Origin: Algibacter sp.
GTDB taxonomy: Bacteria; Bacteroidota; Bacteroidia; Flavobacteriales; Flavobacteriaceae
Length of the DNA stretch: 64,000 bases
Reading direction: 5' to 3'
Assembly (NCBI RefSeq): GCF_029245835.1
Contig: NZ_JAQWOO010000037.1
Location: forward strand, 1 to 64,000
The translations under genes were made by a program, and so were the position numbers. Positions 6,350 through 41,405 of this stretch are shown one piece after another (the first letter of the stretch is position 1; each line of letters opens with the position of its first letter). Under the pieces are notes generated by a model. It worked only from the letters and a program-made list of their open reading frames with translations, did not search any database and was not told the DNA's origin.

Positions 6350-9300
6350 CTACTTTTTATTAATAAGCTCCTTATATTTTGAAGGCAAGCAATTATATTG
6401 CTTTTTGAAAGAAGTTTTAAAATATTTATAATCATTAAACCCAACCTCGTAAGCAACTTGATTAAAATTTAAATCAGTTGAAAGAATAATATGAGCTGCC
6501 TTTTTTAAACGTATGGATCTAATAAATGCTGTTAAAGAGAGTCCTGTTAAAGATTTTACCTTACGATATAACGTAGATTGGCTCATGCATAATTCGTCAA
6601 CCATATTCTCTATTCCAAATGAAGGATTGTCTAAATTATTTTCAACTAGTAGAATGGCTTTATGTATAAAAGTGTTCTCAGCATCAGCGTCGTTTTCTAT
6701 TCTAGCTGCTGTAGGCTCAAAACGAACTTTATTCAAGAAATGGGCTCGTAGCTTTTCTCTATTCGCGAGCAAGCTAGAAATCCTAGCTTTTATTACTTTT
6801 GAATTAAAAGGTTTTGTAATATAATCATCCGCTCCAGTTTTTAGACCTTCAATTTCAAAAACAGTTGATGTCCTAGCTGTTAATAAAATAATTGGGATGT
6901 GAGATGTTGTAATTTGCGATTTTAATTCTTTACATAAAGTGATACCGTCTTTTCCGGGCATCATCACATCGCTTATAATTAAGTCAGGAATCTCATTTGA
7001 AGCTTTTTCAAAACCAGAAACCCCATTGTCGGCCTGTATGACATTATGGTCTTCTGATAGCATGTCGTTTAGGTAACTTAAAATTTCCGGATTATCATCT
7101 ATAACAAGTATAGCATGTTCTTTTGCTTCAATATTTAAACTGTCAATAGGAACAGAAATGTCTTTAGTATTATACCCGACAATATTATCTGAAGTAATAA
7201 AATTTTCATCTATATTCCCTTCAAAGAGGTTAGAATCCATAGCTAATTTTACAATAAACTCCGTACCAAGATTTAATTCGCTTTTTACCTCAATAGTGCC
7301 ATGATGTAATTCTACAATTTTTTTAGTAAATGAAAGACCTATTCCACTGCCTATCATACGTGCCGTATTTGCAGATTTAATTTGAAAAAACCTATCAAAT
7401 ATTTTATCAAGATCCTCTTCATTCATGCCTATTCCTGTATCTTTAATCGAAATGGTGCAAAACTCTGAATCGCTATCTAATCTCATGGTGATTTCGTCAC
7501 CAGACTTAGTATATTTAATGGCGTTAGAGATTAAATTACACAACACAATTTCCATTTTATTTCTATCAAAGGGGAAAACAATTTCTTCTTTAGCCGGTTT
7601 AAATTTATAGTCGATATTTTTAGCCTTTATGGCTTCATTAAAATATAGATAAACCTCTTTAGAGAACCTAACAAAATTACCTTGAGAAACATTAAGTTTA
7701 AGTAATCCATGATCTGCTTTTCTGAAATCTAATAATTGATTAATAAGATTTAGAAGTCTACTGGTATTTTTATCTATATAATTTAAGTTTTTATAAATTT
7801 TTTGAGAAACATTCTCACTTTCTAAAAGCTCCTTTAATGGACTAATAATTAAGGTTAAAGGCGATCTAAATTCGTGAGAAATATTGGTAAAAAAGTTTAA
7901 TTTAGCCTCTGTTAATTCTACTTCTTTCTCCTTGTCTATTCTAGCAATTTCGAGCTTGTTTTTAAGTTTTAATTTGTAGTTATTAGATTTAATTAAGTAA
8001 ATAATAGCAGATAATAAAAACAATAAATATAGTGCTATGGCCCATGGACTTTTCCAAGGAGAACCTAATAAATTAATAGCAATTAATTTGGGATCACTCC
8101 AATTTTGATTGTCTCGAGACCCTTGTACTTTAAGCACATAATCACCAGGAGATAATCCAGCAAAATTTATTTCGTTTCTATTTTGCAAATCAATCCATTG
8201 GTCTTGATATCCATCTAATAAATAGCGGTATTTTATATTTAATTGCCCTAAGTAATCATTAGCAATAAATCGTGTAGAAAAAAAATTGTCGTTATGGGTT
8301 AGTTTTATTTTATCAGTATAGTTGAAATTTTTATCTAAGATGCTATTACCAGGTTTGTATTCAATTAATTCATTATTAACTCGAAGAGCTGTGAAAATAA
8401 TTTCTGGTATAGCGTTAAAGTCTTTTACCTGAGAGGGACTAAAAAAAGTGATGTTATCAAAACCACCAAAACAAATAAACTCATTATTATAATTAAAAAA
8501 ACTTCTGTTATTAAATGATGTTGATTTTACACCATTTATATCTCCATAACTGATAATGGATTTCTTTACATCATCATATTTAACAATTTCAGTGTGCGTA
8601 GTTAACCATAAATTCGATTTGTCATCAAAAGTAATCGCACATATAAAATCACTATTAAGACCATCATCTTGAGTAATGGTTTCTTCTATTATTAATTTAT
8701 TATTTAAATAATTCAGTTTGATTAATCCACTTGGTGTAGCTAACCATAAATGATTATCCTTTAGAGCAATTGAGTTGATTATTACACTCGGTAATTTTTC
8801 TTCTAAAAGTTTTGATTGATGTATGAAGACTTCTTCTTTTCTATCAAACAAGTGCAACCCATTGTAAGTACCAATCCATATATTCTTATTTTGGTCTTCT
8901 ACAATAGCAGTAATTCTGTTACTCTCTATTTTATGACCATTTTTTAAATTTTCGGAATAAACTTTATATCGCTTTATTTTGCCAATATTTTCTAAACTAA
9001 CAATAGCAAGTCCAAGTTGTTGTGTACCAATATAAAGATTGTTATTATTAACAAGGAAAGAGGTAACCTTACCAAGCTTTTTTGAAGAGAAAACTATTTT
9101 TTCTAATTTTAGATCATAAATATAAAATGCAATAGCCGTACCTATAAAAAGTTTTTGATCATTCTCATATAAAGCATTAACTTTTACATTGCCAATATCC
9201 TTTATTTGCCTTAAATTTGAAAAATCTTTACCATGCCAGAGCCCCAAAAACAAAGTACCAACAAATACTTTTTTTTCATTTTTATACAGGCTGGTGCAAT

Positions 9301-23158: not shown

Positions 23159-24004
23159 TTAAGAAGGAATATTTGATTTCAACCATTCGTACCATGTCGA
23201 CATACCTTCTCCTGTAGTGGCCGAAACTTCGAAAAATTGTAATTTCGGATTCACTTGTAATGCATATTCCTTTAATTTATCAATATTGATATTTACATAG
23301 GGTAACAAATCCATTTTATTAATGATACAAATATCAGAGGTATGAAACATATCCGGATATTTTATAGGTTTGTCTTCGCCTTCCGTTGTACTAATAATTA
23401 CAACACGTTTAGATTCTCCTAAATCAAACATGGAAGGACAGACTAAGTTCCCAACGTTTTCAATCATTAAAACACTGTTATCCTTAATATTCAGTTTTTT
23501 AACCGCATCATAAACCATATCACTTTCTAAATGACACCCTTTTCCTGTATTAATTTGAATTACTGGAATATCTAAAGCATCAATACGGTTAGCATCATTT
23601 AAGGTTTGCTGATCGCCTTCAATAACGTAAAACGACACCTCTTTTTTTAAACTTTTTAAAGTTTGTTCTAAAATTGATGTTTTACCTGAACCTGGAGAAC
23701 TTACCAAATTTATAGCAAAAATATTTTTTGCGTCAAAATACCCTTTGTTTCTGGCAGCCATAACATCATTATGTTGCAAAATATCCTGTTCTAGATGCAG
23801 TACCGTTTTATGGTGATGATTATGACCATGTGAATGCTCATGATGCTGGTGATCGTGATGGTGATTATGGTCATGAGAATGGTCATGACTATGTGAATGT
23901 CCATCGTGATGATGGTGATGACTATGTTCGTGAGCTTTTACCTCTTTCGGATTTTGAATAGTAACACCATTCTCACCTGTTCCGCAACCACATGTTCCAC
24001 ACAT
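23159..24004 (-). CDS. hypB: Hydrogenase nickel-incorporation GTPase HypB with histidine-rich nickel-storage region
   Basis: The 281-residue protein starts MCGTCGCG, the high-affinity N-terminal nickel motif, followed by an His/Asp/Ser-rich stretch at about residues 24-66 that can store many Ni ions. The G domain has the P-loop SSPGSGKT, the metal-site CHLESDMV, ENVGNLVCP and the guanine motif NKMD. HypB works with HypA to insert nickel into HoxH. It lies 12 bases after the protease gene. The long His tract fits an organism that must store scarce nickel; that is inference. Confidence 0.97.
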   Translation of the reverse strand: MCGTCGCGTGENGVTIQNPKEVKAHEHSHHHHHDGHSHSHDHSHDHNHHHDHQHHEHSHGHNHHHKTVLHLEQDILQHNDVMAARNKGYFDAKNIFAINLVSSPGSGKTSILEQTLKSLKKEVSFYVIEGDQQTLNDANRIDALDIPVIQINTGKGCHLESDMVYDAVKKLNIKDNSVLMIENVGNLVCPSMFDLGESKRVVIISTTEGEDKPIKYPDMFHTSDICIINKMDLLPYVNINIDKLKEYALQVNPKLQFFEVSATTGEGMSTWYEWLKSNIPS

Positions 24005-24015
24005 AATTATTTTTT

Positions 24016-24483
24016 TTAATTTACTAAAATACTATTCGTTAGAATATTCTTTTTAAAATAGTCTTTAGCCTGATTCATATTTAATTTGGCCTTTTTGCTC
24101 ATTCCAATTTCTAATTCCCATTGATAGCCTTGTATTCCTAAAATAGAAGCTTTAGGATTATGATGATACAAGGTGTTAGCTAAATACAAAATGGTCTCTG
24201 GTTTTAATGCATGTGTACTAAAGCTATAGATTTCTGAAGGTTTACATGTTTTAAAATAAAATCCTTGTTCTGTATCTTCTTTTGTAGCATCAACAAATAT
24301 GACCGTTTCATAATTGGAAATTAATTCGGCATCTTCAATTTGAAGTTGGTATCTGTATTCCAAATCCATATCCATGTTTTGGGTTTCAAGAAAGTCTAAA
24401 AACAACCATCCTAAACCATCATCTTGTCTTCCGGTATTACCAATACCTAAAACTATTGTTTTATGTTTACCTTCTTTTTTCAT
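24016..24483 (-). CDS. [NiFe]-hydrogenase maturation endopeptidase (HoxW/HyaD type)
   Basis: The 155-residue protein begins VLGIGNTGRQDDGLG, the family start GxGN...DDG that contains an acidic nickel-sensing residue, and has FVDATKED and FSTHALKPE downstream. These proteases remove the C-terminal tail of the large subunit once nickel is in place. The gene overlaps the end of hoxH by 17 bases, the normal order for a dedicated protease. It would play the HoxW role for this enzyme. Confidence 0.88.
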   Translation of the reverse strand: MKKEGKHKTIVLGIGNTGRQDDGLGWLFLDFLETQNMDMDLEYRYQLQIEDAELISNYETVIFVDATKEDTEQGFYFKTCKPSEIYSFSTHALKPETILYLANTLYHHNPKASILGIQGYQWELEIGMSKKAKLNMNQAKDYFKKNILTNSILVN

Positions 24484-25915
24484 GTATTAATTCTCCAGCA
24501 TGATTGTAAAGTGAAACCTCTAAAGGCATTTGTCCTAGCGCATGTGTTGCACAACTCAAACAGGGATCATAAGCCCTAATTGCCACTTCTACTTGATTTA
24601 ACATGCCTTCGGTAATTTTAGTTTCACCACTAATAACATTATTTGCTACCCATTTTACAGCTTGGTTCATAGGCTCATTATTATGCGTGGTTGAAACTAT
24701 CAAATTGCAACGGGTAATACGATCTTTATCATCAACTTCATAATGATGAATCAAAGTACCACGTGGTGCTTCAATAATTCCGATACCTTCATTTCGTCGC
24801 GTACCTTTTCTTAAAAGATCATTGCTCAATATATCTACATCATTTAATAAAATTTTCATCATTTCAGCACAATACAGCATTTCGATTAAACGTGCCCAAT
24901 GCGAGTACATCGTTTTATTGTTTATTTTGTTATTTGTTGCCAATTTGAATATAATGCGTTCTTCTTCTGCTAAAGGTGTTTCTATACCGCTACAAATATT
25001 TATTCTAGCCAATGGACCAACTCTATTCCATCCTTTTTCTTTTCCAAGTTCTTTTAAATATGGAAATTTTAAATAAGACCATTTTTCTACACCTTCATTA
25101 AAATACTGTATATAATCATCGTTTGGAACATCATTTAAAGTCACCTTTCCGTTAGCATCGAGAGCTCGTAAATGACCATCATATAATTCTAAAAATCCAT
25201 TTTCCTTATTAACCAATCCTAAATGTCCGGAAGGATAATCTGCAAAACTATTTAACCATTTGTGGTTTGCATCATGATAGTTTTTAATAAAATCTATGAT
25301 TTCATGTGACCAATGAATCATAGCATCAACAGATGGAATTTCCTTACCATTCAAAAAGTAATCCCTATCTTTTAAGGAGACTTTTTTATGAACACCACCG
25401 GGAATTGCTGAGATTCCGTGAATACGTTTTCCTGCTATGGCTTTAATGATTTCCTGACCAAACTTTCGCATTAATATCCCTTTTTTAGCCAAATCGAGAT
25501 GTTTTATTGCCACTTCAGCAACATTACGCTTAGATGGGTCTGCATCTACACCAAACAATAAATCTGGGGATGCCAAATAGAAAAAATGCAAAGCATGAGA
25601 TTGAAATACTTGACCAAAATGTAATAATTTCCTGATTTTTTGGGCTGGCAATGATAAATCTTTTGGCTCTAACCCTACAATCTGATCGATGGCCTTAGCT
25701 GCTGCTAAATGATGACTTACGGGACAAATACCGCATAAACGTTGCACTAAAGCTGGAGCTTCCCAGTATGGATGCCCTTGAATAAAGCGTTCAAAACCAC
25801 GAAATTCAACAATATGAAAAAAGGAGTCTTTCACCTTATTGTCTTCATCTAAATGAATGGTTACTTTACCATGACCTTCAACTCTTGTTACTGGATCTAT
25901 GACTAGTTTTTTCAT
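24467..25915 (-). CDS. hoxH: [NiFe]-hydrogenase large subunit HoxH (group 3d-like)
   Basis: The 482-residue protein carries both metal-binding motifs: RLCGICPVSHH (L1) and DPCLSCATHA (L2), which supply the four Cys ligands of the Ni-Fe centre. About 23 residues after the L2 His (ALGQMPLEV...EKRR) form the tail removed by the protease. The overall pattern, together with the diaphorase partner genes, fits the bidirectional NAD-linked group 3d; exact grouping needs a phylogeny. It starts 2 bases past the stop of the HoxUY gene. The enzyme is cytoplasmic, without a signal peptide. Confidence 0.93.
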   Translation of the reverse strand: MKKLVIDPVTRVEGHGKVTIHLDEDNKVKDSFFHIVEFRGFERFIQGHPYWEAPALVQRLCGICPVSHHLAAAKAIDQIVGLEPKDLSLPAQKIRKLLHFGQVFQSHALHFFYLASPDLLFGVDADPSKRNVAEVAIKHLDLAKKGILMRKFGQEIIKAIAGKRIHGISAIPGGVHKKVSLKDRDYFLNGKEIPSVDAMIHWSHEIIDFIKNYHDANHKWLNSFADYPSGHLGLVNKENGFLELYDGHLRALDANGKVTLNDVPNDDYIQYFNEGVEKWSYLKFPYLKELGKEKGWNRVGPLARINICSGIETPLAEEERIIFKLATNNKINNKTMYSHWARLIEMLYCAEMMKILLNDVDILSNDLLRKGTRRNEGIGIIEAPRGTLIHHYEVDDKDRITRCNLIVSTTHNNEPMNQAVKWVANNVISGETKITEGMLNQVEVAIRAYDPCLSCATHALGQMPLEVSLYNHAGELIHEKRR

Positions 25916-25917
25916 TT

Positions 25918-27186
25918 TTAATCGTATTTAAATTCTTCGTGAGTAATGGAGTAGTCTTCATTTAACAAAATGTTTTTTACAACTTTCCAAATATGATTGG
26001 CATCTGGAGGACAACCAGGAATGTAATAGTCAATTTTCACTATTTCATTACATGGATACACCTTGTTAAGTAGCTTAGGAATATCTTCATGATTAGGGAT
26101 AACATTGGCGCCTATTTCGCTGGTAAGACCATTAATATAGGCTTCTTCTAAACATTCTTTAAGTGGCACAAAATTTCTCATTGCTGGAATGCCACCCATA
26201 ATAGCACACTCACCAAAGGCAATAAGGATATCGCATTTTTTCCTAAATTCTTTTAAGACTTCAACGTTTTCTGAGTTTGCGCAGCCACCTTCAATTAGTC
26301 CAACATCACAACGCTTACTAAACTTTTTAATATCTGTTAAAGGTGATTTATTGAATTCCACAATTTCTAAAACATCAACAATATCAGTATCTATATCTAA
26401 AAGTGACATGTGGCAACCAAAACAACCTGCCAAAGATGTGGTAGCAACAATAAATTTATTATTTGCATCTTTTTTAACAAATCTTTCTTTAGGTTTTGCT
26501 TCTTTATCTTTACCAACTAAATCATATTTTCTATCCCCAAAAGGTTCATTATAAATCATGCCTTTAACCAAAATAGCTCCAACAGGACACAAATCCATAG
26601 CATGCATGGCTTCTGATTGAGATAGTTTTGCTTCTTCTTCATAATCAATTTGAACCCGTGTATTAATACCTCTTTTCACAAATGAAAAAACATCTTTTCC
26701 TTCATCTGTTTTAATGTCTTCAACACAACGCTTACAAAGAATACAGCGATTAGATTCCATAATCATACGATCTGAATTAAAATCCACAACCTTTTTGCTA
26801 TAAACATGGGGGAATCTGGTAACTGTTATGTTCATATCATAGGCCAGGTTTTGCAAATCGCAATTGCCACTTTTTTCGCAGGAAGGACAAAAATGATTAC
26901 CCTCAGCAAATAACATTTCTATTATAGCTTTTCTAGTATCTATAAGTTCTGGTGTATTAATTTCAACCTCAATCCCTTCATTAACTTTTGTGGTACAACT
27001 TGTTGTGGTTTTACCGTTTACAACTACGGTACAGATTCTACATGTTCCTAAAGCATGTTCTTGATTATGAAAATGACACAAGGTTGGTATATAGATTCCA
27101 TTTTCTTTTGCGGCATCTACCAAATTTTTACCTGCTTCCACTTGGTAATTATGGCCATCAATCTTAATATTGACTAGATTATTCAT
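25918..27186 (-). CDS. hoxUY: Fused HoxU (diaphorase Fe-S subunit) - HoxY (hydrogenase small subunit)
   Basis: One uninterrupted 422-residue frame holds two proteins that are normally separate. Residues 1 to about 236 are HoxU: a plant-type [2Fe-2S] site (CHFHN...GTCRICTV...SC), the HFCPSCEKSGNC cluster site, and NRCILCKRC with CPVGAI for [4Fe-4S]. Residues about 245-422 are HoxY: LAGCFGCHMSLLDID, GECAIMGG and IPGCPPDANHIW carry the four Cys of the proximal [4Fe-4S] cluster. The join is a short Lys-rich linker (DKEAKPKERFVKKD). It overlaps hoxF by 8 bases. In the well-known NAD-reducing hydrogenases these are two polypeptides, so this is an unusual fusion. Confidence 0.92.
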   Translation of the reverse strand: MNNLVNIKIDGHNYQVEAGKNLVDAAKENGIYIPTLCHFHNQEHALGTCRICTVVVNGKTTTSCTTKVNEGIEVEINTPELIDTRKAIIEMLFAEGNHFCPSCEKSGNCDLQNLAYDMNITVTRFPHVYSKKVVDFNSDRMIMESNRCILCKRCVEDIKTDEGKDVFSFVKRGINTRVQIDYEEEAKLSQSEAMHAMDLCPVGAILVKGMIYNEPFGDRKYDLVGKDKEAKPKERFVKKDANNKFIVATTSLAGCFGCHMSLLDIDTDIVDVLEIVEFNKSPLTDIKKFSKRCDVGLIEGGCANSENVEVLKEFRKKCDILIAFGECAIMGGIPAMRNFVPLKECLEEAYINGLTSEIGANVIPNHEDIPKLLNKVYPCNEIVKIDYYIPGCPPDANHIWKVVKNILLNEDYSITHEEFKYD

Positions 27187-29002
27187 AGGTAGTTTCTATT
27201 TCGTGAATTATTTTGTCATAATCATCAACCGCTTTTTCTAAATTAAAAGCTTTGTTAATATCGCTTTCTGCTAACAGACACTTATTAAATTCTTCAGGAA
27301 ATTTTAACATCGCCGTCAATAAACAGTTTGTTGATGTTTTTCCTAGTCCGCACCTACTGGATTGTTTAATAATATTACTCCATTCTTTTATTTCATCTAA
27401 ATCATTTTTATCGGCATTACAGAGTTTTATTTTATGAAGTTTCCTGTTTAATAAGAAGTTGCCTGTTCTACAGGGTACGCATATGCCACATGATTCTGCT
27501 ACAAAAAAGTCTGTAATATTTTGTAGAATAGGCAAGAGGTCTCTTGTTTTATCAAAAACCATAAAAGCACCACCACTTCTTAATCCTACCGCGCTCATTT
27601 TACGTGCATATTCAATAGGGTCATTTATTTGAAATTGGATATGTTCTGCTAACAAATTTTCACCAGATATTTCCCTGTCGAAATCATGAGATGATAAACA
27701 CTCTCCTGAAAAACCATTATATAAAATGAAATGAGGATCTTTAGCTTCTATCAAGTCTAAAAAATCTTTTAACTTCATGCCCCATTCTATTTCATAAATA
27801 CCGGGTTTATTACAGTCGCCAGAAACACTCATGAGTTTTGTACCGGGTGTTGCTTTAGTACCAATTGCCAAATATTTATCTACTCCCATTTCTAGAATTC
27901 TTGGAACCGCACAAAGGGTTTCAACATTATTTACAACGGTAGGTTTTCCTAAATATCCTTTTTCTACAGGGAAATACTCTTTTGTAGTGGGCTCGCCCCT
28001 TTTACCTTCCATAGATGCGATAAGTGCGGTTTCTTCACCACATACATAAGCTCCTGCACCCATGTAAATATTCAAATTGAAATTAAATCCCTCAATACCA
28101 AGAATATTTTCCCCTAGTAATCCTTTTTTAAGGAACTCCTTAATAGTTTTTTCTAGCTTATCTTTTAAATAAAAATACTCTGCCCTTAAATAAATAGTAC
28201 CTTCTGTAGCTCCAACAGCATAACCAGCAATAGCCATACCCTCAATCAGCAAGCCTGGGAGTATATTCATTAAAACACGGTCTTTAAAAGTGCCTGGTTC
28301 GCCTTCATCAGCATTACAAATAATATATTTTTGGTCCGCTTTATTATCTCTACAAAATTCCCATTTTAAACCTGTTGGAAAAAAGGCGCCTCCTCTTCCA
28401 GATAGTTTGGATGCTTTTACCAAATCGATAACACCATCTGGTTCAATGCCTATTATTTTTTTTAATGCATCCCCTTGTTTATATGGCTTAAAAAACACTG
28501 TTTTGTTTTCTTCAGGTGTATATTGAATATTATTTTCGGGAAAATCACTTAAGGATTCTAAAGATTCACCTTGCCGTAATTTTAAGATTAAGATTTTTAC
28601 TTTTTCTGGGGTAAGATTTGTAAAAGCTTTAAAATTAATTAATGCAGATGTTTCTTGGTCGCTCAACCCGATACAAGACGTTTCAAATAAGCCAAACAAC
28701 TCATCTTTTGTAACATGCCCTGTTTTTACACCAATTTCAGTTTCAAATGATTTTTTCACCCGATCGAAATCTTTGTGTTTTGAAACAATGGAATTGTTCA
28801 AATAAATGGTGTATTTACCCGCATGTTTACGATGATAGAAATGATAAAAGGAAATAACACCTTCTAATTCCATTCTTGAGATGTTAAATACTTTTGAAAT
28901 TTTAGTCATGTCATCATGACTTATGTACCTTCTTTTTTTTTGAATATCCCACAAGATATTCATCAGCGAGGATTTTTGTAGAGTGCTTTCTTTAGTATCC
29001 AT
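27179..29002 (-). CDS. hoxF: NAD-reducing hydrogenase diaphorase subunit HoxF with NuoE-like N-terminal domain
   Basis: The track opens at 29062, but that start lies inside the regulatory palindrome at 29056-29069; Met at 29002 (MDTKESTLQ) gives 607 residues, near the size of HoxF with an N-terminal extension. Residues about 1-150 are a NuoE-like thioredoxin fold, then the NuoF-like part with the FMN/NAD sites (GRGGAFFPTGLKWEF, GAGAYVCGEETALI) and the [4Fe-4S] ligands ESCGICVPCRTG with a downstream Cys in SSRCGLGKTS. The NuoE-like part keeps only one of the usual four cluster cysteines (ETSCIGLSDQ), so its [2Fe-2S] is probably absent. HoxF passes electrons between NAD and HoxUY. Confidence 0.93.
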   Translation of the reverse strand: MDTKESTLQKSSLMNILWDIQKKRRYISHDDMTKISKVFNISRMELEGVISFYHFYHRKHAGKYTIYLNNSIVSKHKDFDRVKKSFETEIGVKTGHVTKDELFGLFETSCIGLSDQETSALINFKAFTNLTPEKVKILILKLRQGESLESLSDFPENNIQYTPEENKTVFFKPYKQGDALKKIIGIEPDGVIDLVKASKLSGRGGAFFPTGLKWEFCRDNKADQKYIICNADEGEPGTFKDRVLMNILPGLLIEGMAIAGYAVGATEGTIYLRAEYFYLKDKLEKTIKEFLKKGLLGENILGIEGFNFNLNIYMGAGAYVCGEETALIASMEGKRGEPTTKEYFPVEKGYLGKPTVVNNVETLCAVPRILEMGVDKYLAIGTKATPGTKLMSVSGDCNKPGIYEIEWGMKLKDFLDLIEAKDPHFILYNGFSGECLSSHDFDREISGENLLAEHIQFQINDPIEYARKMSAVGLRSGGAFMVFDKTRDLLPILQNITDFFVAESCGICVPCRTGNFLLNRKLHKIKLCNADKNDLDEIKEWSNIIKQSSRCGLGKTSTNCLLTAMLKFPEEFNKCLLAESDINKAFNLEKAVDDYDKIIHEIETTYE

Positions 29003-29055
29003 AGTAAAGAAAAAATGATTTGCAACTAAATTAACACTCTTATAGCACTTAAAAA

Positions 29056-29069
29056 ATGACATTTATCAT
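29056..29069. promoter_or_regulatory. CRP/FNR-like palindrome upstream of hoxF
   Basis: ATGAC-ATTT-ATCAT is a 5-4-5 inverted repeat (one mismatched pair) centred about 60 bases before the hoxF start. The same ATGAC-N4-RTCAT form recurs at 29558-29571 and 34767-34780, each time at a promoter of the hydrogenase island. The spacing and TGA/TCA halves resemble CRP/FNR-family sites. The regulator itself is not in the window. Confidence 0.55.
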
Positions 29070-29159
29070 TTACAGCCTGATTATTAGATCTTTATCTTTT
29101 GTTTAAATTCACAGGGTTATTGAAGATAAAAATGCTGATTTTTTAGTCATTTAATAACG

Positions 29160-29504
29160 TTACTGCAAAACCTCTAATGCTTTTACTATCAACTCTTTGC
29201 CTTTTATAATAGCCTTTAAAAAGCTATTGCAGTTTGGACACGCATCATAAACTTGTTTTAATTCAAAAATGGTATTACAACCACTACATTTTGCCTCTCC
29301 TTTTATTATATGTATTTTTTTAGATGCATGCTCCAAAACAGTGCCTTCAACGGCCAAAGTCCAAACAAATTCTAAAGCGTCCACCTCTATCCCTGATAAA
29401 GTACCTATTTCAAGTTCTATGGACTCCACTTTATTGGCCTTTGCCTTAGCTGTTTCTTTTTCAGCTATATCAACTATTCCCATTGCTATACTCAGCTCAT
29501 GCAT
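29160..29504 (-). CDS. hypA: Hydrogenase nickel metallochaperone HypA
   Basis: The 114-residue protein starts MHELSIAMG, with the invariant MHE nickel-binding N-terminus, and has the zinc site CSGC...CPNC at about residues 73-93. HypA hands nickel to the large subunit with HypB. It stands first in the minus-strand direction, 157 bases before hoxF, and diverges from hypF with the palindrome at 29558 between them. Confidence 0.95.
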   Translation of the reverse strand: MHELSIAMGIVDIAEKETAKAKANKVESIELEIGTLSGIEVDALEFVWTLAVEGTVLEHASKKIHIIKGEAKCSGCNTIFELKQVYDACPNCNSFLKAIIKGKELIVKALEVLQ

Positions 29505-29557
29505 AGTGATTTCATTTTTAATTATAACAATAATAAATAAATATTAAAGATTTTCTT

Positions 29558-29571
29558 ATGACCTAAATCAT
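29558..29571. promoter_or_regulatory. CRP/FNR-like palindrome in the hypA-hypF divergent spacer
   Basis: ATGAC-CTAA-ATCAT lies 53 bases from the hypA start and 55 from the hypF start, so one bound dimer could serve both genes. The bases after it, GTTTATA, are shared exactly with the site at 34767. A -7-like TAACTTTA follows at 29594-29601 in the hypF direction, at a distance that would suit activation by a CRP/FNR-type protein. Confidence 0.55.
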
Positions 29572-29626
29572 GTTTATATTTTAAAAAGTCAGGTAACTTT
29601 ATAAGGTGTATTAAGCAGTATTTTTG

Positions 29627-31888
29627 ATGCAAAAAACCTATAGAATTTCTTTTTCAGGACAAGTACAAGGTGTTGGCTTTCGCCCGTATGTTTATGCATT
29701 AGCTTTAGATTTTTTATTAACCGGAACGGTTTCCAATAACGAAGAAGGTGTTATTATTTTTGTGTCTGGTTTTGAAAAAGACATCTTTCATTTTTTTAAA
29801 AAAATAATCCAATCTCCGCCTCCTGTTTCCAGAATTAAAGACAGTCATATCCATCAAATTGAATATCGCATTTTTGATGAATTTAAAATCATTCCATCTA
29901 AAAAAAGTGGTCGATTAAATTTACCCTTAACACCAGATTTCGCCATTTGTGAAGAATGTAAGAACGACATACAAAACCCTAAAAACAGACGTTATAATTA
30001 CCCGTTTACAACCTGTGTGAATTGTGGTCCACGTTGGGCAATTACAGAAACATTTCCATTTGAAAGAAACCATACAAGTATAGATAAATTTCCTATGTGC
30101 GAAGCATGCTTTAAGGAATACACCAATCTTTCAGACAGACGGTTTCATTCTCAAACAAATACTTGTGAAACTTGTGGAATTGACTTGGTTTTAGTTGATC
30201 ATTCAGGAAAGAAATTAAAAACATCAAAGCATACATTATTTAAGAAAGTTGCCAATCTTTTATCTAAAGGAAAGATTATTGCTATAAAAAATACCAGTGG
30301 CTATCTATTATGTTGCAATGCGGAAAACGGAAAGGTTGTTCAGCAATTAAGAGATAAAAAAAACAGACCGAATAAGCCGTTTGCGATTTTATATCCTTCG
30401 TTGAATCATTTAAATAAGGAGTTACAAGTAGAAAAGGTTCACGTTAAATCTTTAACTTCAACGGAAAGACCCATCACTATCATGTCTTTAAATGATTATA
30501 AAGGACATATTGATTTAGACAAAGTGGCACCAGAACTCAATCAGTTAGGGGTCATGTTACCCTATTCTGGAATTTTACAATTGTTAGCCAACGCATTGAG
30601 CTTTCCAATAGTTGCTACCAGTGGAAACATCCATGGTTCTCCAATTATTAGTGAGAATGATGAGGCATTTGATAAATTAAAAAATGTAGCTGACTATTTT
30701 CTTCAACATCATTTAAAAATTACGCATCCTCAAGACGATTCGGTTGTTAAGTTCAGTACGAAATTTCAAGAGAAAGTATTATTCCGTCGCTCACGAGGTT
30801 ATGCACCAAATTATTTTAATGCCTCCATAAAATCAGAAAAGAAAATAATGACTCTTGGAGCACATTTAAAAAGCAATATTGCATACTATCCTAATGCGTT
30901 TTTATATATCAGTCAATATTTAGGTAACCTCGACAACTTTCATGTTTACGAGCGTTTTACTAAAACAATTCAAAATTTCATTACGCTTTTCGAGCAACAA
31001 CCAAATGTGCTGTTAGTAGATAGTCATCCAACCTATCAGAGTACTTTATATGGAACTGAATTAGCACAGAAATATAAAACAGAATTACATAAAATTCAGC
31101 ATCACAAAGCACATTTTGCATCGGTTTTAGGTGAACATGATTTATTTGATTCAAATGAAAAAATATTAGGAGTTATTTGGGACGGCACTGGTTATGGAGA
31201 TGATGGACAAATATGGGGAGGCGAATTTTTTGATTATCAAGCCCATAAAATGGAAAGGGTTTCACATTTTGATTATTTTAATTGGATAGCTTCTGATAAA
31301 ATGTCAAAAGAACCAAGATTATCTTTACTATCATTAGTCAATGACGACATGCAATCTGTATTGGAAGATAAATTCTCATCCAAAGAATTGAAAATCTACC
31401 AATCATTAAAACAAAAAAACAAACTAAAAACATCATCTATTGGAAGGTTGTTTGATGCAGTCGCGTCATTATTAAATATTTGCGATATCAATACCTATGA
31501 AGGAGAAGCAGCGATATTGCTAGAAAATTACTTAACCGACTATAATTTAGATGATTGTAAATTATACAGTTCCGTTTTATATGATAATTCAGTTCCTACT
31601 GAAACATTGCTTTTCAATTTATATTCTGATTTTAAGAATGGAAATTCTAAAACGCAAGTGATTGCCAATTTTCTATTCACTTTAGCATCCATAATATTTC
31701 AAATGGCAAAGAATCAGAATATCAAACATATTGCTTTTAGTGGTGGCGTATTTCAAAACACGACCTTAATAGATATGATAAATGTCTTGTCTCAAAACCA
31801 ATATAAGTTGTATTTTAACAAAGATTTACCACCTAACGACGAAAACATTTCGTTTGGACAAATCATGTATTACACAAATTGTAAATGA
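29627..31888 (+). CDS. hypF: Carbamoyltransferase HypF
   Basis: The track uses TTG at 29624; the next codon is ATG, so I place the start at 29627 (753 residues). The order is an acylphosphatase domain ([16 protein letters not shown]), two zinc-finger motifs (CEEC...CVNCGP and CEAC...CETCG), a YrdC-like domain, and a Kae1-like domain with [13 protein letters not shown] and [16 protein letters not shown]. HypF makes the carbamoyl group that becomes the cyanide ligands of the Ni-Fe centre. It starts a plus-strand operon with hypD and hypE and overlaps hypD by 4 bases. Confidence 0.96.
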
Positions 31889-32973
31889 AGTATTTAACCG
31901 AATATAGAAATTTAGAAGCCACCAAAAAGTATTTGAAACTTATTGATAAAACCATTACAAAAAAATGGAATATCATGGAGGTTTGTGGTGGACAAACACA
32001 TGGATTGGTTAAGAACGGGATTCTTGAATTGTTGCCAGACAAAGTCCAAATGATTCATGGTCCAGGTTGTCCTGTTTGTGTCACACCATTAAATTTAATT
32101 GATAAAGCTATTGAGCTTCTTGAAAACGGCGTTATTATTTGTTCATTTGGAGACATGATTCGTGTTCCAGGAAGCACAAAAAGCTTGTTGGAAGCTAAAG
32201 CAGAAGGCGGTGATTTACGCATTTTATATTCACCAATTGAAGCGGTGAAAATCGCTAGAAATAATCCAGATAAGGAAGTCGTTTTTTTTGCAGTTGGTTT
32301 TGAAACCACGGCGCCAGCTAATGCATTGTCTGTGTTGCATGCTCAAAAAGAAGGCTTAAAAAATTACTCTATTTTAGTCTCCCATGTATTGGTGCCTCCA
32401 GCAATGGAAGCTATTTTAGATGATGAATTTTGTAATATTGATGCTTTTTTAGGAGCTGGACACGTATGTGCCATAATGGGTTATAAAGCATATTATCCGT
32501 TAGCCGAAAAATATAAAATCCCAATTGTTATCACAGGCTTTGAACCCGTGGATTTAGCACAAGGTATTTACATGGCAGTTAAACAGTTAGAAGAAGGTCT
32601 TCATGTTGTTGAAAATCAATATTCCAGAGCTGTTAAGGAAGAAGGCAATGTTGCTGCAATTAATGTGATAAATCAAGTTTTTGAAGTTGGCAACAGAGAG
32701 TGGCGAGGTATTGGAGAAATACCTAATAGTGGTTATGTTTTAACACCAGAATTTAAGGCCTTTGATGCGGAGTTAAAGTTCGGAATCAGTTATATAAAGG
32801 TTCTAGAAAACCCCGATTGTATTGCAGGTGAGATTTTACGGGGCATTAAAAAACCCAATGAATGCAGTCAGTTTGGTAAAGTTTGTAATCCTTCAAATCC
32901 TTTGGGAGCGCCAATGGTATCTTCAGAGGGAGCTTGTGCCGCTTATTATCACTTTTCAAATAATTTAGAATAA
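31885..32973 (+). CDS. hypD: Hydrogenase maturation scaffold HypD
   Basis: The 362-residue protein has the family motifs [28 protein letters not shown] and a C-terminal set of cysteines (CSQFGKVC...SEGACAAYY) around the [4Fe-4S] cluster. HypD with HypC assembles the Fe(CN)2CO unit. It is coupled to hypF through an ATGA overlap, and hypE follows directly after its stop. Confidence 0.97.
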
Positions 32974-33999
32974 ATGAATAAAGAAGAACTAGGTTTTGAT
33001 ACTATTAATTTGGGACATGGCAGTGGGGGTTTAATGACTAGAGACTTGTTGGATAAAATTATTTTCAAAACATTCAGCAATCCATTTTTAGACCAAAAAC
33101 ACGATGGTTCTATTGTTAAATTCAATGGACCGACAGCGATTTCAACAGATAGCTTTGTGGTGTCTCCAGTATTCTTTAAAGGCGGAAACATAGGTAGCTT
33201 AGCAGTGCATGGAACGGTTAACGATGTTGCTATGTGTGGCGCTATTCCAAAGTATTTAACATTAGCATTTATAGTTGAAGAAGGATTAAAAATTGAAGAC
33301 TTTATTGCCATTGTAGCATCTATAAAAGAAGCTGCAGACAAATGTGGTGTTCAAATAATAACAGGTGACACTAAAGTTGTGGAACGTGGAAAAGGTGATA
33401 AAATTTTCATTAACACAACAGGTTTTGGGGAAGTGAATCCAAAAGCGAATATTTCAACTGATAATATTAAAGTAGGTGATAAGATTATTGTAAACGGATT
33501 TGTTGCACAACACGGAATGGCCATCATGTCTCAACGAGAAGGCTTGGAGTTTGAATCGACTATAGAAAGTGATTCAACTAATTTAAACTTCCTAGTGAAT
33601 GATTTGATTGACGCATTCGGAGATAAAATTCATTTGTTTAGAGACCCTACTAGAGGAGGCATAGCTAGTGTATTGTCTGAAATTTCTAAGGACATAAATA
33701 AAGGCATCACTATTCACGAAGATAAAATTCCATTGGAAAAACAAGTTGCAGCAGCATGCGAAATTCTTGGATTGGATCCGTTATATGTTGCTAACGAAGG
33801 GCTGTTTATAGCAATTATTGACTCGGAAATTGCAGATGCGGTTTTGGAACAAATGATAAAAGATGAAAAAGGCATAAATTCAGCATGTATTGGTGAAATT
33901 ACAGAAGTGCATCCCTCTAAAGTTGTAATGCATAGTTCAGTAGGTGGTAAGCGAATTATAAGTCCATTAATTGGCGAGCAATTACCGAGGATTTGCTAA
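32974..33999 (+). CDS. hypE: Carbamoyl dehydratase HypE
   Basis: The 341-residue protein has the nucleotide-binding start LGHGSGGLMTRDLL, the PurM-like folds, and the diagnostic C-terminus LPRIC whose last Cys carries the thiocarboxamide that becomes thiocyanate. It begins at the base after the hypD stop. Its end overlaps the stop of the convergent permease gene by 4 bases. Confidence 0.97.
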   Translation: MNKEELGFDTINLGHGSGGLMTRDLLDKIIFKTFSNPFLDQKHDGSIVKFNGPTAISTDSFVVSPVFFKGGNIGSLAVHGTVNDVAMCGAIPKYLTLAFIVEEGLKIEDFIAIVASIKEAADKCGVQIITGDTKVVERGKGDKIFINTTGFGEVNPKANISTDNIKVGDKIIVNGFVAQHGMAIMSQREGLEFESTIESDSTNLNFLVNDLIDAFGDKIHLFRDPTRGGIASVLSEISKDINKGITIHEDKIPLEKQVAAACEILGLDPLYVANEGLFIAIIDSEIADAVLEQMIKDEKGINSACIGEITEVHPSKVVMHSSVGGKRIISPLIGEQLPRIC

Positions 34000-34700
34000 G
34001 TACTAAACATCCAGTAAATACCAATAATTATTGCAAAAAGTCCGCCTGATAAACGAATGCCTTTAAATAACGCATCATTATGTTCGTTCCTGCTATATGA
34101 TGAGATTTTGCCAATTACCAATGTAAAAGTGGTCATAGCGATTATGATTCCTAAACTAAATCCGAATATATATAAAACAGAATCTATTTGACTAGCAAAA
34201 CTTGCGACAGGTATAAATAATAAAAAGTGTGCAATTCCTGCTAAACCATGCAAAAAACCAATAGAAAGTGAAGCCAAATTGCTTTGTTTTAAATCTTTAG
34301 GATGCTTATGATGATGACTGCTTTCATGGGAATGATCATGTTTATGTTTGTGAATTATTGGTGAATTTTCATTGTGAACATGTAGATGTTTATGCGTTCT
34401 TTCCTGACTAAACAACTTATAAAAAGACCAAACACCTATAAATATCAATACTAATCCAACTAATTGTTCGCTGTAATTTGATATTTCTTCAACAGGAATT
34501 ACTTCTCTGAAAATCAAAAATAAAACGCCTATTAAAACCATTCCCAACAAATGACCAATACCCCAAAAGAGTCCAATTTTCCATGCACTTTTTTTAGATT
34601 CAATAGCAAAGGGAATAACTGCAGCTAAATGATCTGGCCCCGTAATTACGTGTAATATAGACGCCATTAGAGCTGCAATAAACGGAAATGAAATACCCAA
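33996..34700 (-). CDS. NicO/UreH-type membrane permease, probable nickel transporter
   Basis: The 234-residue protein has about six membrane helices, an early ITGPDHLAAVIPF motif resembling the nickel/cobalt transporter signature, and a His-rich cytoplasmic loop (HKHLHVH...HKHKHDHSHESSHHHKH). These fit nickel permeases of the UreH/NicO kind. Its position, convergent with hypE and behind the third shared palindrome, supports nickel supply for the hydrogenase. The substrate is inferred, not shown. Confidence 0.7.
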   Translation of the reverse strand: MGISFPFIAALMASILHVITGPDHLAAVIPFAIESKKSAWKIGLFWGIGHLLGMVLIGVLFLIFREVIPVEEISNYSEQLVGLVLIFIGVWSFYKLFSQERTHKHLHVHNENSPIIHKHKHDHSHESSHHHKHPKDLKQSNLASLSIGFLHGLAGIAHFLLFIPVASFASQIDSVLYIFGFSLGIIIAMTTFTLVIGKISSYSRNEHNDALFKGIRLSGGLFAIIIGIYWMFST

Positions 34701-34981
34701 AATTTTTAAATTAAAATGGCAATAATATTTAAAGTACTAATTTATTTATTATGAAGTCATTATTTGATGACTTCAGTCATGTTTATAAAAGCTATAGTTA
34801 TTTCTTTTAAGACTTATTAGCTTAATCAAGCGTTTAAATATCTATATAAGCTTGATACTTAACAGAAGATATTCAAAATAAAATAGTAGTGATTTATCAG
34901 GAAATAATGGACTAAAAAAAATAATGTCGGGCTCTGACACGCAATTCAACTAGTTAATAAAACTTTTAAATAAGTTTCCGT
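34701..34981. other. Non-coding spacer upstream of the permease
   Basis: No credible gene is seen in these 281 bases. They hold the inverted repeat GAAGTCAT-N6-ATGACTTC at 34753-34774, the palindrome at 34767-34780, a loose ATCAAGC/GCTTGAT pair near 34826-34857, and at 34926-34981 a stretch following the truncated hydrolase that does not continue any frame of it. Confidence 0.6.
34767..34780. promoter_or_regulatory. CRP/FNR-like palindrome upstream of the nickel-type permease
   Basis: ATGAC-TTCA-GTCAT is a perfect 5-4-5 inverted repeat about 67 bases before the permease start, followed by GTTTATA exactly as at the hypF site. It overlaps a second inverted repeat, GAAGTCAT-TATTTG-ATGACTTC. Presence at this gene ties nickel uptake to the hydrogenase genes. 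Confidence 0.55.
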
Positions 34982-40361: not shown

Positions 40362-41405
40362 TTGAATAAAAAAAAGAAAACTACTATAAAAGATATTGCA
40401 AACGTGCTAAATATTTCTCCAGCTGCCGTATCAAAAGCTTTACATGACGATTCTAGGATTAGTAAAAAAACAAAAATAGCAGTAAGACAAGTTGCTAAAA
40501 ACTTAAATTATCAACCTAATCATCTAGCAAGTGCATTGCGTAAAGGAAAAAGTAACTTAGTTGGGGTTATTGTCCCGAAAACAAATAGTAATTTTTTTTC
40601 ATCAGTTATTCAAAATATTGAAGAAGTTTTAAATAAAGAAGGATATAATATTATAATAACTCAGTCAAATGAATCTTTTAGAAAGGAGTGCAATAACATT
40701 GATACCCTATTGTTTACTCAAGTTGATGGTATTATCGCTTCTATGGCAAATGAGACCACAGACTTAGAATATTACGAAAAAATTAAATCTAAAGGGATTC
40801 CTTTAATTTTATTTGACCGTGGTGAAAATGATCTCAATGTAGATTATATTGGCATTAATGATTATGATAGCAGTCATATGATTATTAACCATTTAGTAGA
40901 GCAAGACTGTAAACGTATTGCACACATTGGTGGTTATAAACACACTCGAATATTTAATAATAGAATTAGAGGTTATATCGATGCTTTGAAAAAAAACAAA
41001 TTACCTTTAGATGAAGAACTTCTTTTAGAAAGTAGTCTTACAACCGAAGATGGCAGAGAAAAAATGATCCATTTATTATCTCTTAAAAACAGACCTGATG
41101 CGGTTTATGTTGCAGGTGATTATGCGGCATTAGGTGCTTTACAAGTTTTAAATGAGCAAAATATTAAGGTTCCACAAGACATCGCCTTAGTTGGTTTTGG
41201 AAACGAACCTTTTACGTCTATGGTAACTCCCACCATATCAAGTATAAAGCAACATAGTGGAGAAATAGGAAAGCAAGCCGCTAAAACATTTCTAGAACAT
41301 GCGAAAACAACGGATATGAAACAGACTTTAAATAAAATTATTTTAGATGCCGAATTGATTATTCGAGATTCTTCCAATAAAAAATCACCTGTTAAATCTA
41401 CATGA
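40362..41405 (+). CDS. LacI-family transcriptional regulator of the KDG genes
   Basis: The track opens at a TTG inside the operator; no ATG precedes the HTH, so TTG at 40362 (NKKKKTTIKDIANVLNISPA) is the likely start, giving 347 residues. The HTH (TIKDIANVLNISPAAVSKAL) is followed by the hinge (NHLASALRKGKSNLVGVIVP) and a periplasmic-binding-protein-like sensor domain. It probably represses kdgK-kdgA and itself until a KDG-type inducer appears. Its last 21 bases overlap the kdgK pseudogene on the other strand. Confidence 0.9.
   Translation: MNKKKKTTIKDIANVLNISPAAVSKALHDDSRISKKTKIAVRQVAKNLNYQPNHLASALRKGKSNLVGVIVPKTNSNFFSSVIQNIEEVLNKEGYNIIITQSNESFRKECNNIDTLLFTQVDGIIASMANETTDLEYYEKIKSKGIPLILFDRGENDLNVDYIGINDYDSSHMIINHLVEQDCKRIAHIGGYKHTRIFNNRIRGYIDALKKNKLPLDEELLLESSLTTEDGREKMIHLLSLKNRPDAVYVAGDYAALGALQVLNEQNIKVPQDIALVGFGNEPFTSMVTPTISSIKQHSGEIGKQAAKTFLEHAKTTDMKQTLNKIILDAELIIRDSSNKKSPVKST

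Follow-up and report, generated by a model that had tools for sequence, protein, structure and literature searches.

The window analysed here, a 64,000-nucleotide (nt) stretch of Algibacter sp. DNA (contig NZ_JAQWOO010000037.1, positions 1 to 64,000), carries a [NiFe] hydrogenase island with palindromes of 5-4-5 form in front of several of its genes. Based on the sequence, activators of the CRP/FNR type in all likelihood switch on these hydrogenase genes at low oxygen from class-II positions, together with a wider regulon. This reading draws on computed data, namely the sites, their spacing and enrichment, the list of target genes, the conservation at hoxF and the association with regulator genes. 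The genome analysed comprises 3.36 Mb in 100 contigs, and genome-wide counts were obtained by pattern searches.

A composite promoter element

Lining up all sites revealed a composite element, in which the palindrome ATGAY-N4-RTCAT is followed, after exactly 22 nt, by the box TAnnTTTR. Perfect composites were found 31 times in the genome, against 0 for the reversed pattern, and 1054 times across 151 family genomes, against 8 in the control; in this composite form, the motif thus occurs far above chance frequency. When spacers of 10–36 nt were allowed, 12 of 13 TAnnTTTG matches lay at 22 nt. Similarly, of 50 site-directions (25 sites outside the window), a perfect -7 box stood 22 nt away in 17, and every other spacing between 8 and 40 nt had at most one. 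A -7 box at exactly 22 nt is the distinguishing mark of these palindromes.

The main text of the Flavobacterium psychrophilum transcription map gives TAnnTTTG as the flavobacterial housekeeping -7 box, mapped at positions -12 to -5 relative to the transcription start (PMC9723704). Because of this published position and the fixed 22-nt spacing, the centre of the palindrome falls at a predicted -41.5, and the box itself is two-fold symmetric, with half sites of the CRP/FNR form and their TGA core. Position -41.5 is the classical class-II activator position of CRP and FNR.

The palindrome alone is a much poorer guide. ATGAC-N4-RTCAT occurs at 29 distinct places in the genome, with 42 strand hits versus 16 for the reversed pattern, and is therefore only two- to three-fold enriched; without the -7 box it was set aside as evidence, being too weak by itself. 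In the window it was found at four distinct places, compared with 0.26 expected from dinucleotide shuffles.

Hydrogenase promoters in the window

A first-pass annotation had placed three such palindromes at "all three hydrogenase promoters" of the island, and their form and positions were confirmed: ATGACATTTATCAT (29056-29069, before hoxF; ATGATAAATGTCAT when read on the minus strand), ATGACCTAAATCAT (29558-29571, between hypA and hypF) and ATGACTTCAGTCAT (34767-34780, before a permease gene). The promoters, however, number four, as the palindrome at 29558 is positioned for both hypA and hypF.

Both strands of the window (about 128,000 positions) were scanned with a weight matrix of 44 positions, for whose training 17 composites from elsewhere in the genome were used. 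The four highest scores were those of the hoxF, hypF, hypA and permease promoters, in that order, and the fifth (17.6) lay inside hypF. The hoxF composite (29026-29069, minus strand; score 24.6) has its -7 box, TAATTTAG, at 29026-29033 with one mismatch and a predicted start at about 29021. The hypF composite (29558-29601, plus strand; 23.8) joins ATGACCTAAATCAT over 22 nt to a perfect -7 box, TAACTTTA, at 29594-29601, with transcription predicted to start at about 29606. From the same palindrome, the hypA composite (29528-29571, minus strand; 19.1) reaches the box TATTATTG at 29528-29535, with one mismatch and a predicted start at about 29523; the 29558-29571 palindrome is thus placed to serve the two divergent predicted promoters. 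The permease composite (34737-34780, minus strand; 18.4) consists of ATGACTGAAGTCAT, 22 nt and the box TAAATTAG at 34737-34744, also with one mismatch. For hoxF, hypA and hypF, a leader of about 19–21 nt is predicted, within the range of the other composite targets.

It should be noted that the mechanically called hoxF reading frame begins with an ATG (29062) that overlaps the site at 29056. A start at 29062 was ruled out, since HoxF proteins of relatives align only from the ATG at 29002 onward, and the site therefore lies upstream of hoxF. The fourth ATGAC-N4-RTCAT place in the window, at 40864, lies within a LacI-type coding region and scores 12.9, compared with 18.4–24.6 for the hydrogenase promoters; for both reasons it is probably due to chance, and it was rejected as a regulatory site. 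The heptamer GTTTATA, which had been reported as shared by two of the sites, does follow two palindromes (29572-29578 and 34781-34787). It was nevertheless left out of the conserved element because its second copy lies on the side far from the permease gene and faces away from it. A second inverted repeat, GAAGTCAT-N6-ATGACTTC (34753-34774), overlaps the permease palindrome.

Conservation in related islands

Conservation was assessed in 80 named HoxH loci, a site being counted when a top-three matrix hit of the locus lay just upstream of hoxF. The hoxF site was present in 26 of 36 flavobacterial loci, with 0.8 expected from column-shuffled matrices, and in 16 of 28 other loci, nearly all from other Bacteroidota (0.57 expected). 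In islands of other genera the box precedes hoxF and hypA, in several cases with identical spacing. An exact palindrome within 350 bp upstream of hypA was found in 21 of 30 flavobacterial loci, compared with 3 of 30 for hypB, and the hypA -7 variant, TAnnATTG at 22 nt, also occurs in four of the loci (L131, L132, L133 and L175). Conservation of the hypA site is thus partial. Of the two outcomes that the first-pass annotation named as refuting it, a motif at chance frequency and a lack of conservation in related hydrogenase islands, neither was borne out; only the permease site lacks conservation, as detailed below.

No exact palindrome was found within 350 bp upstream of hypF in 28 flavobacterial loci, which suggests that this placement of the box is particular to the present genome and a few relatives. 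In several relatives, a membrane-bound uptake hydrogenase operon stands between hypA and hypF, with the box between hypA and the operon. In L098 (8650-12892) this operon encodes a small subunit, a large subunit, a b-type cytochrome and a protease, and equivalents are present in L100, L101, L103, L105 and L110-L112. The Algibacter genome lacks such an operon. The hypA–hypF box is most simply read as a promoter that persisted when the uptake operon was lost and now stands before hypF.

Putative low-oxygen regulon

Outside the island, composites precede, among others, ccoS followed by ccoNO (cbb3 oxidase); the genes for pyruvate formate-lyase (PflB), pyruvate phosphate dikinase and phosphate acetyltransferase (Pta); two pyruvate/2-oxoacid:ferredoxin oxidoreductase (PFOR) genes and one ferredoxin gene; and genes for a HemN-like radical SAM protein, a molybdopterin oxidoreductase, a peroxiredoxin, universal stress proteins (Usp) and CBS-domain proteins. 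Judged by these annotations, the target set is of the make-up of a low-oxygen regulon. In F. psychrophilum, oxygen limitation strongly raises the expression of cbb3 oxidase (PMC9723704).

Some sites are clustered. Contig C61 (52571-88132) has six perfect ATGAC-N4-GTCAT palindromes, and in five the core is GG/CC-ended. They are grouped around a gene for a receiver-CRP fusion (75166-76227) and that of its kinase, and precede universal stress, peroxiredoxin and other genes; this group is possibly a sub-regulon with its own preference. A second cluster, mostly of ATGAT-N4-ATCAT, was found on contig C27 (6515-21108 and 33850), near another receiver-CRP gene (32772-33821). The palindrome at 6545-6558 of this contig has perfect -7 boxes on both sides, forming a divergent promoter pair as at hypA/hypF.

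Candidate regulators

Seven HTH_Crp_2 matches were found in the genome. One is an FNR-like protein (C4:65513-66187) encoded about 31 kb beyond the permease promoter, divergently from the cbb3 assembly ATPase and with a palindrome in front, which is also present in 19 of 30 orthologues. It contains PF00027 and PF13545, i.e., the cNMP-binding-like domain and Crp-type helix-turn-helix of the CRP fold, and aligns with solved FNR from residue 3 over 220 residues. Its cysteines C4, C7 and C106 are in register with three of the FNR ligand cysteines, and Asn13 occupies the remaining position, that of the third ligand cysteine of FNR. Three further cysteines, C29, C53 and C59, are nearly invariant in 30 orthologues, and one of them might supply a fourth ligand. 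PRK11161, the curated Fnr model, is the best model for this protein, but at 93 bits against a cut-off of 228; we suggest that it may work like FNR and do not file it as FNR. The AlphaFold model (mean pLDDT 71, about 50 at the N-terminus) was too uncertain for cluster placement and was not used.

The box upstream of the FNR-like gene (C4:66225-66238), like that in L211-L239, is followed on the side of the cbb3 assembly ATPase by a -7-like sequence at 22 nt, whereas the FNR-like start codon is only about 37–50 nt away. This suggests activation of the ATPase gene and possible self-repression of the FNR-like gene. Another CRP/FNR gene (C5:9846-10556), whose product has a CxxC-x4-C N-terminus, adjoins a molybdopterin oxidoreductase operon with a composite box (12786).

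The other candidates are the two receiver-CRP fusions (C61:75166-76227 and C27:32772-33821), each adjoining a histidine kinase gene. Among the 151 family genomes, the mean number of composites was 14.5 with both regulator types, 5.3 with the FNR-like gene only (54 genomes), 6.9 with a fusion only (31 genomes, 30 of them non-zero) and 1.1 with neither (22 of 30 at zero); these means are raw counts, uncorrected for phylogeny or genome size. Since 30 of the 31 fusion-only genomes have the motif, the FNR-like gene was rejected as the sole regulator. The hoxF site is kept both in G145, which has only a fusion, and in G063, an incomplete genome with only the FNR-like gene. Taken with the counts, this indicates that the box probably serves more than one regulator. 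The earlier proposal of one CRP/FNR-like regulator is thus apt as to type and too specific as to number, the FNR-like protein and both fusions being candidates.

Genes of the hydrogenase island

The minus strand carries hoxF (27179-29002; Pfam, NCBIfam), encoding the NAD-linked diaphorase subunit with NuoE and NuoF domains; a one-frame fusion of hoxU and hoxY (25918-27186; Pfam, with the NCBIfam HoxU model at 175.9 bits, below its cut-off of 333); hoxH (24467-25915; PF00374), encoding the large subunit; a hydrogenase maturation protease gene (24016-24483; TIGR00072, above its cut-off); and hypB (23159-24004; PF02492), encoding the nickel-insertion GTPase with a His-rich stretch. The HoxU-HoxY frame has 422 residues, and the same 422-position fusion was seen in all relatives examined. 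HoxH is the sole [NiFe] large subunit found in the genome. By domains, the HoxF diaphorase, HoxU, HoxY and HoxH make up the subunit set of an NAD-linked bidirectional [NiFe] hydrogenase (Hox), putatively of group 3d, an assignment made from subunit content.

Upstream lie hypA (29160-29504, minus strand; PF01155) and, on the plus strand, hypF (29624-31888; Pfam), hypD (31885-32973; PF01924) and hypE (32974-33999; AIRS domains and its position beside hypD). These are followed on the minus strand by the gene for a membrane permease with a His-rich loop (33996-34700; DsbD_2), which adjoins hypE in relatives. The permease gave a weak match to the nickel/cobalt efflux (RcnA) model, 31 bits against a cut-off of 195. 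It matched no nickel importer family, only DsbD_2 and efflux-type models below cut-off; that it takes up nickel is a guess from its position.

Discussion

Based on the above results, we infer protein binding, activation, oxygen as the signal and the identity of the regulator as follows. The palindromes would be binding sites of CRP/FNR-superfamily activators centred at -41.5, where the activator dimer would sit against RNA polymerase with the Bacteroidetes housekeeping sigma factor. At low oxygen, transcription of the hox operon, hypA, hypFDE and the permease gene would be activated, and the cbb3 oxidase, fermentation and stress genes would be induced together with them. The likeliest oxygen-linked binder would be the FNR-like protein, with the receiver-CRP fusions probably sharing the box. 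The first-pass suggestion of a CRP/FNR-type activator sensing low oxygen agrees with the predicted -41.5 position and the content of the putative regulon.

Several points weigh against this interpretation. Only hypF has a perfect TAnnTTTR, the -7 boxes of the other three window promoters differing by one base. None of nine relatives has an exact palindrome within 350 bp upstream of the permease, and the permease site is for this reason the least supported. Flavivirga rizhaonensis (L130), the closest sequenced relative by HoxH, keeps the hoxF site and lacks the exact hypA/hypF palindrome. Moreover, 5 of the 54 genomes with the FNR-like gene and no fusion are without any composite, and several regulators could bind the same box.

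It is possible, if less probable, that the receiver-CRP fusions are the main binders of the hydrogenase boxes; the activator would then take its direct input from a phosphorelay instead of an Fe-S cluster of its own. The motif persists in the fusion-only genomes, the hoxF site in G145 does so without an FNR-like orthologue, composites cluster on the contigs of both fusion genes, and these genes are paired with kinases and retain the CDIMMP phospho-acceptor motif. On the other hand, the FNR-like-only genomes have the motif as well, G063 among them at hoxF, and the FNR-like gene has a palindrome in front and adjoins cbb3 genes. A nickel- or hydrogenase-specific regulator of this island only, NikR-like or local, would explain why every island site precedes hydrogenase or maturation genes or a putative metal permease. 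However, the same composite stands before about 27 other genes, most of which have no relation to nickel, for which reason this candidate was rejected, and occurs in many family genomes with no true HypF match and hence no evident [NiFe] hydrogenase. The half sites of NikR are also much further apart than 4 nt, and we consider such a regulator very improbable. Least probable of all are chance palindromes in AT-rich intergenic DNA. The modest genome-wide enrichment of the palindrome alone and the permease site, which shows no conservation, would suit chance, but the window expectation, the fixed spacing, the independent matrix ranking and a hoxF conservation far above that of column-shuffled matrices do not. 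Chance is refuted for the hoxF and hypA/hypF sites; the permease site is the only one that it could explain.

Control of hydrogenase genes by FNR-type activators at class-II positions is already known, and in proteobacteria hyp genes, too, are controlled by FNR and FixK/FnrN. The proposed CRP/FNR-type control resembles the FNR regulon of Escherichia coli and Aliivibrio fischeri in its 5-4-5 palindrome, -41.5 centre, low-oxygen targets and CRP fold. It differs in the box, ATGAY-N4-RTCAT instead of TTGAT-N4-ATCAA, in a promoter with the Bacteroidetes -7 box, and in the receiver-CRP fusions that apparently share the box. The recognition helix of FNR (VETISR, E..SR) corresponds to ATESAIR here, with the E and R kept and Ser replaced by Ile. 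The F. psychrophilum transcription map has the -7 box and cbb3 induction under oxygen limitation in common with our data; the terms CRP, FNR and palindrome do not appear in its main text (PMC9723704). MalR-like CRP/FNR homologues have been predicted for Flavobacteriales of an anammox community, with a carbon-sensing role and using a Bacteroides motif (PMC8510549); such homologues are common to both studies, whereas a low-oxygen regulon or hydrogenase was not reported there. No description of the box sequence, its -7 pairing or the two regulator types was found in the searchable literature, a coverage that leaves out most subscription journals.

Flavobacteriaceae are a major group of marine and fresh waters, and their oxygen regulation has been charted only poorly. 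The proposition that one -41.5 box across this family, and probably much of Bacteroidota, integrates two kinds of activator, an FNR-like protein rich in cysteines and receiver-CRP fusions driven by kinases, into an undescribed low-oxygen regulon including hydrogen metabolism seems to us evenly balanced. With its fixed spacing, the box would allow a probable low-oxygen regulon to be listed directly from any flavobacterial genome, and since motif number rises with either regulator type, their division of labour becomes testable. The hydrogenase is predicted to be made at low oxygen, together with fermentation and high-affinity respiration, and it is very probable that hydrogen metabolism forms part of a low-oxygen programme shared across the family.

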